NCBI RefSeq assembly: GCF_000021745.1 | Contig: NC_011666.1 | Span: 1,178,001-1,242,000, forward strand | Direction of reading: 5' to 3' | Origin: Methylocella silvestris BL2 | GTDB lineage: Bacteria; Pseudomonadota; Alphaproteobacteria; Rhizobiales; Beijerinckiaceae | DNA: 64,000 bases | Part shown: in pieces, positions 1,985 through 6,021 of the stretch | How positions within the stretch are numbered: position 1 is the first letter of the stretch | Layout: the number at the start of each line of letters is the position of its first letter | Position numbers and translations under genes: made by a program | Notes under the pieces: model-generated | The model's input: the letters and a program-made list of their open reading frames with translations, nothing else | Database searches by the model: none | Told to the model about the DNA's origin: nothing

Positions 1985-4234
1985 CTAGCGCACCTTGATC
2001 TGTGCGAAGCTCGTCAGCACGCGCTGGGCTTCGCCAACATGAGGCAGGCCGCCGGCGGCCGTATCATAGGGAGCGAGCGCGTCGAGACGGAGCCCGCTGC
2101 GGCTGGCGACATCCGCGACGGTTGTCCGGAATTGGGTCACCTTCGCCCGCGTGGTCTCGTCCGGCTGCCCGCCGCCGCGGCGCATGATCGAAAGCAGATC
2201 AGTCTGGTCGACAACAAGCGCGACCGCCTTCAGGCCGCCTTTTCCTTTCCAGACCACGATCTTCCAGAAGGCGTTCGGGACTTCAACGTCGTCCGCGTAA
2301 AGCGGCTGCGGAGCGTCATACAACGGGCCCTGGAGCACGCTGAGGCGCTTGTCGAATCCGGTCTCCCACAGGCCCTGCTCCAGAACATACCGCTCGACGC
2401 CCTGCCAGAACTCGATCGACTCGTTGAACTTCCAATGCTGCGGCGAACAGTTCGTGAAGTGAAACGTGTCGGCGTTGGCGCGAGCAGCGTTTGGACCCCA
2501 GGTCGGATCGTTGCGCCGCGTTAGATGCCCACGATCGAAAATGTGGCTCCATCCGCTGTAGAAATCATTTGTGAGTGTCAGGGGTTCATTGATGCGGGTG
2601 TCCTTGTACCAGACGTCCCCTTCGGCTCTGGGCTGCTCCTCGGCGGGTTGGCCGGTCTTGCGGTCGATCTCTATATAGGTTTCGCCATCGATGTTGGTCG
2701 CGGTCAGGATCGCGATGCGGCGCACCTTGTGCATGACGACGCTGAAATTCTCATAGATCAGCTCGCCCGAGAGGCGCCCTTCGGCCGGCTCTAGCAGGGC
2801 TGCGATCTTCTTTTTCAGGGGATCAACTATCGTGGCGAGATCGATGTCGAGTCCAGGCACAAATGTCGGATCGAAGCCATTACGGTTTGCATAATCGCGA
2901 TCGATGCGCTTGGCTTCCGCAAGCGCGCGAGGCGCGGGCGCGAGGGCGCGTTCCGCAGCGCCGCCAGGCGACAGCGACGAAACGCTCGCTGGCGTCCCGA
3001 TGCGGATCGTGATTTCAAGCGGGAGAACGATCGTCGCTTCAGATGCAGGAATGGGCATGGCGGGCGCCTCTTTTGAAACGAGGATCGGATCCGGAGATGG
3101 CGGCGCCTTACGGCTGCCGGATGCGGCGGCGGCCTCCGCTGGAGATGCGGCATCGTCCGTTTGTCGGGGACGCGGCGTGAGTTTCTTTTCCGTAGGCGCA
3201 TCTGTCTTCCAGAGCACGAGCGCCTGTTCGAGCAGTTCGCGCCCCCGTCCGGCCAGACCCGCCACCTTTGCGCTGAGATCGTCGTAGATGCTGCTGATCC
3301 GGATGCCCTCATTTACGCTGCGCGTCTTTGATCCGCTGGGCAGGACAACATCTTCGTTCGCCTCGCCGTAATGATGAAGAGCAACAACATCCCAGAGATC
3401 GTTGAAGACCGGCGAACCGGACGAGCCATCAAGCGTGTCGGTCTCGTAGAACAGCCGGCCGTCATTGTCGTCGCGCGCAACGATCAGGTTGTTACGCAGA
3501 ACGACGATCTTCTTACGGCCTTCCGGATGTTGAACAATATTCGCGTTGATGCCAAGTTGATGGCGATCCGGCGTCCGGCTCAGCGGACAAAAGCCAAAAT
3601 CAGCGAGGGCGCCAGCGCCGCGGACGCGCGCGCCGACCGCGATAAGCGCATAATCGAGCTGGGCTTCTTCCGAGGCCAGGAACAGAGTGTCGGGATCGAG
3701 CGCGAACGCCGTCGCCGGACGGATCTCGCCACGCTCGTCCAGTTCGTCATCAAAGAGGATCTGCGTCAGGGTCGCATCGGCCGCATCCTTGACGACGTGC
3801 TGATTGGTCAAGAACAGGTCGGCGCTTATCAGGAACCCTGTGGCTGTGCGCGACTCGCCAGAAGACTCAAGGATTGTGCGTGCCACCGCACGCCGGGCCT
3901 TGGCGCCGTCGGGAAGAAAGGCGGCCGGCTGGAAGTCGTTCGTGCCACGGCTCGCCTCGGCGTGACCCGCCTCCCGATCGATACGCGCCGCATAGGCGAC
4001 GGCCCGAGTATTGTCGGGTTCGGCGCCGCGCCAATCGCCGGATGCGACCTTCGCGCGGCTCTTCATCCGCTCGTCGGATGTCGCAGCGATCCGCTCGCGG
4101 ATCTGAGTCACTGTGTCAGCGCGCAGACCCGCACTGTCCAATGCCACGCCGACCTCCCCAGGATCGCCAGACGTCCAACTGCCCAAGCGTACTTTGTCAA
4201 TTTTACGCAACAATTTCGTGACGGGCCCAATCAT
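1985..4234 (-). CDS. Trypsin-like protease fused to DNA/RNA non-specific endonuclease
   Basis: A 749-residue multidomain protein. Residues 1-100 form an unassigned N-terminal region that could be an adaptor. Residues about 110-330 look like a trypsin/V8-type serine protease: TNQHVV (His146), LDYAL (Asp194) and GSSGSP (Ser272) supply the triad. Residues about 340-450 are a Pro/Ala-rich linker. Residues about 485-745 are a NUC/EndoG-type nuclease with the DRGH motif (567-570) and the downstream NCSPQ...FN pattern (Asn595, Asn604) that binds the catalytic metal. No signal peptide or membrane segment is visible, so it is predicted cytosolic. The start has only a weak ribosome site. It lies 48 bp behind the neprosin-like gene on the same strand. 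The activities are predicted from intact motifs; a role as a proteolytically controlled toxin or defence effector is inference. Confidence 0.85.
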   Translation of the reverse strand: MIGPVTKLLRKIDKVRLGSWTSGDPGEVGVALDSAGLRADTVTQIRERIAATSDERMKSRAKVASGDWRGAEPDNTRAVAYAARIDREAGHAEASRGTNDFQPAAFLPDGAKARRAVARTILESSGESRTATGFLISADLFLTNQHVVKDAADATLTQILFDDELDERGEIRPATAFALDPDTLFLASEEAQLDYALIAVGARVRGAGALADFGFCPLSRTPDRHQLGINANIVQHPEGRKKIVVLRNNLIVARDDNDGRLFYETDTLDGSSGSPVFNDLWDVVALHHYGEANEDVVLPSGSKTRSVNEGIRISSIYDDLSAKVAGLAGRGRELLEQALVLWKTDAPTEKKLTPRPRQTDDAASPAEAAAASGSRKAPPSPDPILVSKEAPAMPIPASEATIVLPLEITIRIGTPASVSSLSPGGAAERALAPAPRALAEAKRIDRDYANRNGFDPTFVPGLDIDLATIVDPLKKKIAALLEPAEGRLSGELIYENFSVVMHKVRRIAILTATNIDGETYIEIDRKTGQPAEEQPRAEGDVWYKDTRINEPLTLTNDFYSGWSHIFDRGHLTRRNDPTWGPNAARANADTFHFTNCSPQHWKFNESIEFWQGVERYVLEQGLWETGFDKRLSVLQGPLYDAPQPLYADDVEVPNAFWKIVVWKGKGGLKAVALVVDQTDLLSIMRRGGGQPDETTRAKVTQFRTTVADVASRSGLRLDALAPYDTAAGGLPHVGEAQRVLTSFAQIKVR

Positions 4235-4282
4235 CGGCCACGCGTCAAACGGCTTTCGGCGGGTCGATCGGTGGCCGGATCG

Positions 4283-5614
4283 TCACCGCTTTCCGCCGGG
4301 CCCACCGAAGAAGAGCGTCGAGAAGTTGGGAGAGTTGAGATAGCTGAAAGAGCCCGTATAGGCCCAGGGCCAGTCCTGCGAGACCGTCAGATTCGCGGGA
4401 ACATTCGCCCCCGCCGGAGGGAAGTAGTAGATGTCGCTCTGATAGGCGGCCTTGCCGAAGCCAAGGCTCGCAAATTTGCCGCTGCCCATGGGAGGCCAGC
4501 TTTTCGTCCCGACGACTTCGCCGCCATAGTCGATTTCCTGCGCGCCGACGCTCATCGCGCCCCCTTTATAGAGCGTGGCCGGGTAATAGCCGATCGCGTT
4601 CGCAGCGGCCGTGCCGTTCACATAGAGCCACCATCTGCCTTGAAACAGGAAATAGCTGAGCTCGAGAACGACCTGCTTTTTCGGCGAGGTGCTCCATGGC
4701 TTGAGCGCGCCGCCGACCGCCCAGGAATTGTTGGTCTGAACGAAGGCGGCGCAGGTCAGATTGTAGCAGCCGGTGTTGGTGTAGCCGTCGGCCGTCCAAT
4801 AGATAAAAAAGACCGGCTTGGGGGTATTGTAAAACTTCGGATAGACCTGCCAGCCCGTCTCGGCGGTTTGCAGTCCGGCCCCGTTGCCGCCGACATACCA
4901 GTGTTGCGACAGGGAAAAGATCTGGCTTGCGGCGACTGCCGGCTTCCACAAATTCAGCAGACTGTGGCCGCCCACATTGTTCACTTCCTGGTAGGCGTGC
5001 GCATAGCGATGCGTCGCCGGCACCGGCGCTTGACGGTTTGCCGCGCGCTGCGGCAAACCGGCGCCGTCGGGGCTCTTGCGAAAAAACTCCTGCAGGCTGG
5101 CAAAGCGGCCGATCTGCTCGGGCGTGACGCGCGCCATCGGGATCGCACCCTCTGCGCAGGCCATGGCGTTGCCGAACCGGTCGGTCTCGGCGGCGCTGAG
5201 ATTGGTCGCCTTCGCCTGCCCGTCAGCCGACGCAGCGCGCGAGATGCCTTTCGGGATATCGGGGGGCGTCGGCAGCGGCTCTTTGGAGCCCTGCAGCGCC
5301 GGCTGCTGCATGATCGGAATACAGTCGAATGCCGTGTCATTGGCGTCGACGAAGCTATGTTTCACAGCTTTCGCGTCGACGCTCGCATAGAGCGAAGCGA
5401 GATAGGATTGCGCTTGCGTCGGCGCGGAGCGGGCCGACGCGACGGCAGGCGTCGTGCTTGCTGCTGCGCCGGTTTGCGAAGCGGCGATCCCGCCGATGAA
5501 TTCAGCGAAGGGTTGCAGACTTTGCGGCGCTTGAGGAGCATCTTCGGCCATCACCGCCAGCGGCGAATAAAAAACCGACGCAACGGCAAGCGCCGTGATC
5601 CGAACCATCTGCAT
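4283..5614 (-). CDS. Secreted neprosin-domain (glutamic endopeptidase-like) protein
   Basis: The chosen start gives 443 residues and is preceded by GGGAGG at good spacing. An upstream ATG at 5719 would add 35 residues ahead of an obvious signal peptide ending in AVMA. The C-terminal half matches the neprosin (DUF239) domain of plant pitcher-fluid prolyl endopeptidase, with the motifs LWKP, FSLSQHW, AETGWQV, TGCYNLTC and YGGEV in family order. The two conserved glutamates, Glu252 in AETGWQV and Glu366 in YGGEV, are the likely catalytic pair of a glutamic peptidase. The N-terminal 170 residues are Ala/Pro-rich and may be a propeptide. It probably acts outside the cytoplasm. Bacterial members are much less studied than plant ones. 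Confidence 0.82.
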   Translation of the reverse strand: MQMVRITALAVASVFYSPLAVMAEDAPQAPQSLQPFAEFIGGIAASQTGAAASTTPAVASARSAPTQAQSYLASLYASVDAKAVKHSFVDANDTAFDCIPIMQQPALQGSKEPLPTPPDIPKGISRAASADGQAKATNLSAAETDRFGNAMACAEGAIPMARVTPEQIGRFASLQEFFRKSPDGAGLPQRAANRQAPVPATHRYAHAYQEVNNVGGHSLLNLWKPAVAASQIFSLSQHWYVGGNGAGLQTAETGWQVYPKFYNTPKPVFFIYWTADGYTNTGCYNLTCAAFVQTNNSWAVGGALKPWSTSPKKQVVLELSYFLFQGRWWLYVNGTAAANAIGYYPATLYKGGAMSVGAQEIDYGGEVVGTKSWPPMGSGKFASLGFGKAAYQSDIYYFPPAGANVPANLTVSQDWPWAYTGSFSYLNSPNFSTLFFGGPGGKR

Positions 5615-6021
5615 AAACACCCTCCCGCAAGTCTTGATTGAGATCGAAAAATAGTCTTCGGCGCCCTGCGCGAGGAACCAGCTTATCGTCGTTCTATGAA
5701 GCCTATTGGCGTGCGACAAGCGCGATTGCGCACATACGGGGCAGAGATTGAACTGGGCGACGCCGGCTTTTACAGGACGCCAGCGCTGCTAACTCACGAT
5801 TTACGTTGAAAATCAGCGCCTAGGAGCACGTTCTCCGCGTCCCGCGAGCTCATCTCGGGGATCCGCCCGCCCGAGCGGCGCGCCGCGCTTCGGGCATGAT
5901 TTCGGCGGCCAGGAATATGGCCCCTTTCGGAAACGACCTCTGATCCTAACTAGCGGCGCGCTCGCCGGCTTTGCCTTGTCCGACGCAGCCGTGCTACGCA
6001 CCCCCGAAAGGAAGACCGCCG
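5615..6021. other. Divergent intergenic region, neprosin-like gene / purB
   Basis: About 400 bases separate the divergent starts and should hold both promoters. There are ribosome sites for the minus-strand gene (GGGAGG) and for purB (AAAGGAAG). A 12-bp palindrome GCGGCGCGCCGC lies at 5875-5886, which is weak evidence in DNA this GC-rich. I see no convincing promoter, small gene or RNA here; short open frames inside lack coding signs. Confidence 0.5.

Follow-up and report, generated by a model that had tools for sequence, protein, structure and literature searches.

A bacterial neprosin-family pre-pro-peptidase in Methylocella, with a candidate latency lysine and inverted domain charge

The genome of Methylocella silvestris BL2 (4,305,430 bases) encodes a member of the neprosin family (Pfam PF03080; eelysins), a kind of protein already known. 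The gene occupies positions 4283..5614 on the minus strand of the window, the 64,000-nucleotide stretch of DNA analysed here, and specifies a pre-pro-peptidase of 443 aa, from an ATG at 5614 to a stop codon that ends at 4283. The predicted product is probably a glutamic prolyl endopeptidase, exported and synthesized in latent form as a zymogen; this function is read from sequence comparison and a structure model. The original prediction, made from the letters of the DNA, had described a neprosin-domain protein in this frame with the motifs LWKP, AETGWQV, TGCYNLTC and YGGEV; the frame is as described, its strand is minus, and all four motifs are present in the translation.

Gene, domains and active site

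Comparison with a second genome of the genus, Methylocella silvestris TVC, identifies a real, selected gene. The TVC orthologue is 86% identical to the window protein and adjoins the same cytochrome c gene. Counted by codon position, the two copies differ at 37/26/104 nucleotides, with a dN/dS of 0.18, of the same order as in the neighbouring cytochrome gene (0.16); the neprosin gene is under purifying selection, and its frame is therefore not an artefact of G+C content. A 756-aa open reading frame on the opposite strand (3371-5641, plus) covers the gene and is most likely a chance frame, a G+C-rich shadow of the coding strand. No compositional trace of recent transfer was seen when the G+C content (0.626) and GC3 (0.766) of the gene were set beside those of purB (0.625 and 0.814) and the GC3 of seven other window genes (0.717-0.808).

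Downstream on the same strand, starting 48 bases past the neprosin stop, lies a gene (1985..4234, minus) for a 749-aa fusion of a trypsin-like domain (Pfam Trypsin_2, 7.2e-23) and a DNA/RNA non-specific endonuclease (Endonuclease_NS, 5.2e-35). It is not part of the neprosin enzyme and is a possible operon partner. A search of the 13-kb TVC locus (L006, that locus only) gave no match to the fusion, which was rejected as a conserved partner of the window neprosin. Its protease part gives weak PADLOC matches to RT-Protease models (best 1.2e-05). The window neprosin itself has no PADLOC match at E 0.01, and a defence function was set aside.

The Pfam Neprosin model matches aa 231-439 over profile positions 2-214 of 214 (E 8.2e-53; 179.4 bits, cut-off 22), which confirms a neprosin domain in a bacterial protein; the same model matched in 0 of 14 control genomes. 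At E 0.1 the protein has no NCBIfam match. Its only PDB sequence relatives up to E 1 are chains of the solved neprosin (three distinct, best 1.1e-39). The catalytic domain, delimited by Pfam, the PDB sequence match and structure overlay, spans about aa 200-443 (4286..5017, minus). Ahead of it lie a pro-domain and linker at about aa 24-199 (5018..5545, minus), recognized from a fold overlay on pro-neprosin and a match to the activation peptide model Neprosin_AP at aa 95-208 that falls below the Pfam cut-off (E 4.8e-7; 30.7 bits against 39.2). The neprosin profile alignment takes in part of the pro-domain as well (5.5e-61). The choice of P199 as the end of the linker is a guess, and P188 or P197 could be the activation site instead. 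A probable Sec signal peptide occupies aa 1-23 (5546..5614, minus), with a possible cut after V-M-A at 21-23, read by eye from the translation. The propeptide proposed earlier is upheld by these matches, and the signal peptide proposed with it is likely.

An AlphaFold2 model built from 17 sequences has a mean pLDDT of 80.9 and a pTM of 0.83. Its low-confidence parts are aa 1-30, 48-64, 125-130 and, within the linker, 191-198. Its top five Foldseek matches are the five neprosin entries. VIA-align superposes model residues 72-443 on residues 32-401 of the zymogen 7zu8 (Z 37.5; 2.3 A over 311 residues), with the pro-domain preceding the catalytic domain, and aligns the model with mature 7zvb at Z 33.1 (1.3 A over 235 residues). 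The next structural matches, two Bacillus proteins (Z 16.3 and 15.1) and the eqolysins (Z 14.0-14.6), score far lower. The overlay, named as a check in the original prediction, thus covers both the pro-domain and the catalytic domain of neprosin, and the model places E252 and E366 so that they very probably face each other.

Both catalytic Glu residues claimed at the outset are present: E252 (4859..4861, minus) aligns with E188 of plant neprosin, and E366 (4517..4519, minus) with E297. Q237 (4904..4906, minus) and W239 (4898..4900, minus) are the equivalents of Q173 and W175. According to the available text of PMC9343461, neprosin mutants at E188, E297, Q173 and W175 are inactive, and H134, Y136 and Y214 are ancillary residues. 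Every residue essential by mutation in plant neprosin is kept in the window protein, and the alignment further pairs H202 with H134, Y204 with Y136, T250 with T186, Q256 with Q192, Y258 with Y194, Y272 with Y208, Y278 with Y214 and Y284 with Y220. The E188 position is Glu in 49 of 49 aligned rows and the E297 position in 48, the single exception (L014) being a contig-truncated row; these rows exclude duplicate loci (L022-L037), the window's own locus (L001), the TVC copy (L002) and one plasmid copy (L005). Neprosin E293, in the S3' site, becomes D362 in the window protein. The residue given as Y206 in the accessible part of PMC9343461 is Phe in the neprosin chain aligned, and F270 here. The window protein retains only four Cys (C98, C153, C283 and C288), and nothing in it corresponds to the C-terminal Cys of neprosin.

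Linker lysine, charge and proposed activation

In plant neprosin, the linker residue K118 sits in the S1 site against E188 (PMC9343461, available text). The candidate latency-plug Lys of the window protein is K180 (5075..5077, minus), which lies in an F-x-x-K-like linker stretch and is shared by all 17 of the proteins aligned. Counted by eye, a Lys stands at this place in 23 of 24 bacterial long forms, with L003 the exception. The partner of K118 depends on the alignment: hhalign pairs it with R179, the neighbour of K180, and HMMER and MAFFT select different partners. In early alignments K118 fell opposite S173 or E176, and both were dropped for K180/R179 on the conserved F-x-x-K stretch and the hhalign pairing. 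K180 probably acts as the latency plug, which is a reading of these alignments, not a result. At least one Pro lies between the linker Lys site and the catalytic His in all 24 bacterial long forms (by eye). This Pro fits autocatalytic activation after Pro, for which it is weak evidence because the linkers are long.

The charge of the two domains is reversed relative to Nepenthes neprosin, which has a basic pro-domain (pI 9.5) and an acidic enzyme (pI 4.3) in the portion of PMC9343461 available. The window protein has a pro-domain of pI 5.4 and a catalytic domain of pI 9.0, and the corresponding values in the TVC orthologue are 5.3 and 9.1. Among the 23 rows computed, a table without the short rows, L044 and the partial L014 and L016, only these two have a catalytic-domain pI above 6.3, the other 21 falling at 4.1-6.3. 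The pro-domain pI is mildly lower than the catalytic pI in five more rows (L004, L011, L017, L019 and L045), so that the basic-pro, acidic-enzyme polarity does not define the family. Given the inverted charge, the pH optimum, activation and substrate may differ from those of neprosin. Acid could open such a charge-inverted zymogen by discharging its pro-domain.

The host is a methane-eating soil bacterium, and its habitat is acid soil. A type II secretin model matches its genome at 444.7 bits (cut-off 351.35; one component of the system, above cut-off in 2 of 14 control genomes too), making secretion past the outer membrane possible. In the proposed mechanism, the protein would be exported by Sec to the periplasm and perhaps onward through the type II secretion system. 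Near neutral pH it would stay latent, with the linker occupying the cleft and a salt bridge joining E252 to K180 (or R179). Acid would weaken both this salt bridge and the electrostatic pull of one domain on the other, and the linker would be cut after Pro (P188, P197 or P199), probably by a second molecule of the enzyme. E252 and E366 would then hold and activate the water that attacks the bond after Pro in proline-rich peptides. The role may be nitrogen and carbon scavenging from proline-rich proteins in acid soil.

A broader proposal is tentative and rather doubtful: neprosin-type zymogens might be a bacterial invention spread by horizontal transfer, with a linker-Lys plug older than the plant enzymes, and the Methylocella branch might have inverted the charge of pro-domain and enzyme while keeping the acid trigger, the pro-domain being protonated instead of the enzyme.

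Rival readings, descent and distribution

The inverted charge also bears on a reading in which a neprosin-fold glutamic peptidase still works through E252 and E366 with a changed specificity or pH range, acting at mild pH or on substrates not cut after Pro; such substrates might be anionic polymers or proteins of the cell's own envelope, with the basic surface helping. The pI values of catalytic domain (9.0) and pro-domain (5.4) are the inverse of those in plant neprosin, the catalytic value lies outside the range of the 21 rows other than TVC, and the change of E293 to D362 in the S3' site points the same way. However, most subsite residues named in the available text of PMC9343461 are kept (F169, L171, Q173, E188, Q192, Y194, Y208, Y136 and W175), and such a shift is unlikely. 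A dead or decaying acquired gene, retained by chance alone, would suit a very patchy occurrence (3 of 15 genomes of the genus and 3 of 248 sampled genomes of the family), but the frame is intact in two Methylocella genomes, dN/dS is 0.18 and the known essential residues are all kept, making decay highly improbable. The preferred reading remains an exported prolyl endopeptidase with a latent precursor.

That this gene came from a plant by recent transfer might be supposed from the best-studied member, a plant enzyme, and from 38% identity to neprosin. Bacterial copies are closer, at 49% in Rugamonas and 45-47% in Kitasatospora. In a tree of 31 rows, the copies of the window and TVC pair with Rugamonas (98/96) inside a bacterial clade of 19 rows (100/99), with plant neprosin outside it. 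The tree holds one plant sequence and no fungal ones, and leaves out L044 (a fragment) and all but 6 of 23 short Streptomycetaceae rows; it disfavours a plant origin, and recent transfer from a plant is scarcely credible. Phylogeny had been named alongside the original prediction as a way to decide between plant and bacterial lines, and it favours the bacterial one, with the single plant sequence in the tree. These comparisons are best read as horizontal transfer from a bacterial source. A copy from another genome of the genus (L003) falls in another clade, alongside one MAG each of Nitrospira and Rokubacteria (97/95), which on this tree means at least two acquisitions of the gene by the genus. 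This second neprosin (L003:730-2136) is 36% identical to that of the window and is flanked by a trypsin/HtrA-like ORF ahead of it and a permease-like ORF behind it (both identified by eye).

Genome samples, each a draw from a larger group, show how patchily the gene is spread. The three carriers in the host's family sample all belong to the host's genus. One of 398 genomes in the phylum sample carries a neprosin, the window's own; likewise, 1 of 396 genomes in an Actinomycetota sample and 1 of 195 in a sample of the Rugamonas family do so, each the centre genome. Among sampled Streptomycetaceae, 40 of 297 genomes have the gene (50 matched places, 18 of them outside the loci examined). A scan of genome contigs with two short patterns returned 102 stretches, at least 16 of which encode relatives, 10 of the 16 in MAGs; the titles name Pseudomonadota, Actinomycetota (Kitasatospora), Nitrospira, Planctomycetota, Rokubacteriota, Bacteroidetes and Verrucomicrobia. 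Two Novosphingobium records are plasmids with a neprosin. Carriage by phages was rejected, with no match in phages at E 0.01, as was carriage by viruses, since none of five pattern-matched stretches in viral contigs encodes a relative. No leader is evident in 15 of 23 bacterial long forms, a soft count with starts chosen by eye; the window and TVC proteins have one.

The earlier view that such a peptidase is unusual in an alphaproteobacterium is true as rarity, given the family and phylum counts above. It is weakened by bacterial members already in print (PMC6980582, in the text available) and by the Novosphingobium plasmid copies, also alphaproteobacterial, which are annotated by name.

A recurrent arrangement was seen in other bacteria. 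In L012 (Nitrospira) and on the Novosphingobium plasmids, a leaderless-looking neprosin is followed after 18-24 bases by a protein of 1161-1186 aa and then by another unknown protein, of 420 aa in L012 (L012:5998-12150; L004:3863-9089; the same places in L005). The large proteins of L012 and L004 are 65% identical. Neither these nor the 420-aa protein has a Pfam match, and the L012 proteins have no NCBIfam match. A neprosin adjoins the large protein in a Pseudomonadota MAG as well (L016:3-3329), and a Ruegeria plasmid has relatives of the last two proteins with no neprosin annotated nearby. The neprosin, the large protein and the third protein together look like a mobile cassette. The large protein has no match in the host genome at E 0.001 and was rejected as a conserved partner of the window neprosin.

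Comparison with known systems

According to the available text of PMC9343461, only plants have neprosin orthologues at about 35-40% identity, a restriction that the window protein and its relatives contradict. Few bacterial genomes have a neprosin domain, and transfer from actinobacteria to basidiomycetes has been suggested (PMC6980582, 2020, accessible portion). No activity assay of a bacterial neprosin was found among the literature matches listed, in a search with subscription journals mostly outside it, and on the same limited view of the literature the conservation of the linker Lys and the inverted charge seem new. The window protein and its relatives are natural, prokaryote-made variants of a glutenase in development against coeliac disease (PMC13269764, available text). 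The label "gluten-cleaving-type" in the original prediction is an inference, and the charge of the window catalytic domain is strongly unlike that of plant neprosin. Conservation of the linker Lys would allow the latency-plug idea to be tested directly in distant branches, and the inverted charges would do the same for the electrostatic side of the activation model.

Among bacterial relatives, the Rugamonas neprosins (L007 and L008) are the nearest outside Methylocella (49% identical, sister clade). They have a catalytic pI of 6.0 and no evident signal peptide on the chosen start; L007 has in-frame starts further upstream, ahead of a hydrophobic stretch. The Novosphingobium plasmid copies (NC_015579.1 and NZ_CP009295.1), annotated "neprosin family prolyl endopeptidase", come from the same bacterial class, are 43% identical and share the domains and key residues (one copy aligned). 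Unlike the window protein, they have no evident signal peptide (by eye) and lie upstream of two unknown genes on plasmids. E40 of Actinoallomurus was ruled out as a bacterial neprosin, being S53 according to the available text of PMC6739405. A Verrucomicrobia MAG has an open frame of 1495 aa with a neprosin unit as its N-terminal part (L020:4804-9291).

In Streptomycetaceae, 23 short proteins (L038, L039 and L046-L066) retain both catalytic Glu and replace Q173 by Glu, W175 by Ala or Ser, Q192 by Thr and Y194 by Asp; most of their frames are too short to include a pro-domain. From these replacements, they are probably a separate branch (6 of the 23 in the tree) of different specificity.

More distant folds are shared with far less sequence. 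The Bacillus protease CPAVM1 and YncM (8xai and 4hfs) are alike in fold at Z 16.3 and 15.1, with 9% and 7% identity. The eqolysins (family G1; 2ifw, 2ifr and 1s2b) have the beta-sandwich in common at Z 14.0-14.6 and 9-11% identity. In the comparison available in PMC9343461, they also share one catalytic Glu with the window protein, which lacks their Gln-Glu dyad, E252 standing at the Gln place by way of neprosin E188.

The closest characterized system is Nepenthes neprosin (MEROPS U74, eelysin; PDB 7zu8, 7zva, 7zvb, 7zvc and 9qr8). Unlike it, the window protein is bacterial, has inverted charge and Asp in place of E293, and is without the C-terminal Cys. The stretch from a conserved Arg (R162) to the linker Lys is seven residues longer in the window protein (by eye), and its pro-region is about 178 aa after the signal peptide, the plant stretch compared being less than the full pro-region. 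The two proteins share both domains and their order, the fold (Z 37.5), the Glu dyad, the essential Gln and Trp, the ancillary His and Tyr, and a basic linker residue at or beside the K118 place.
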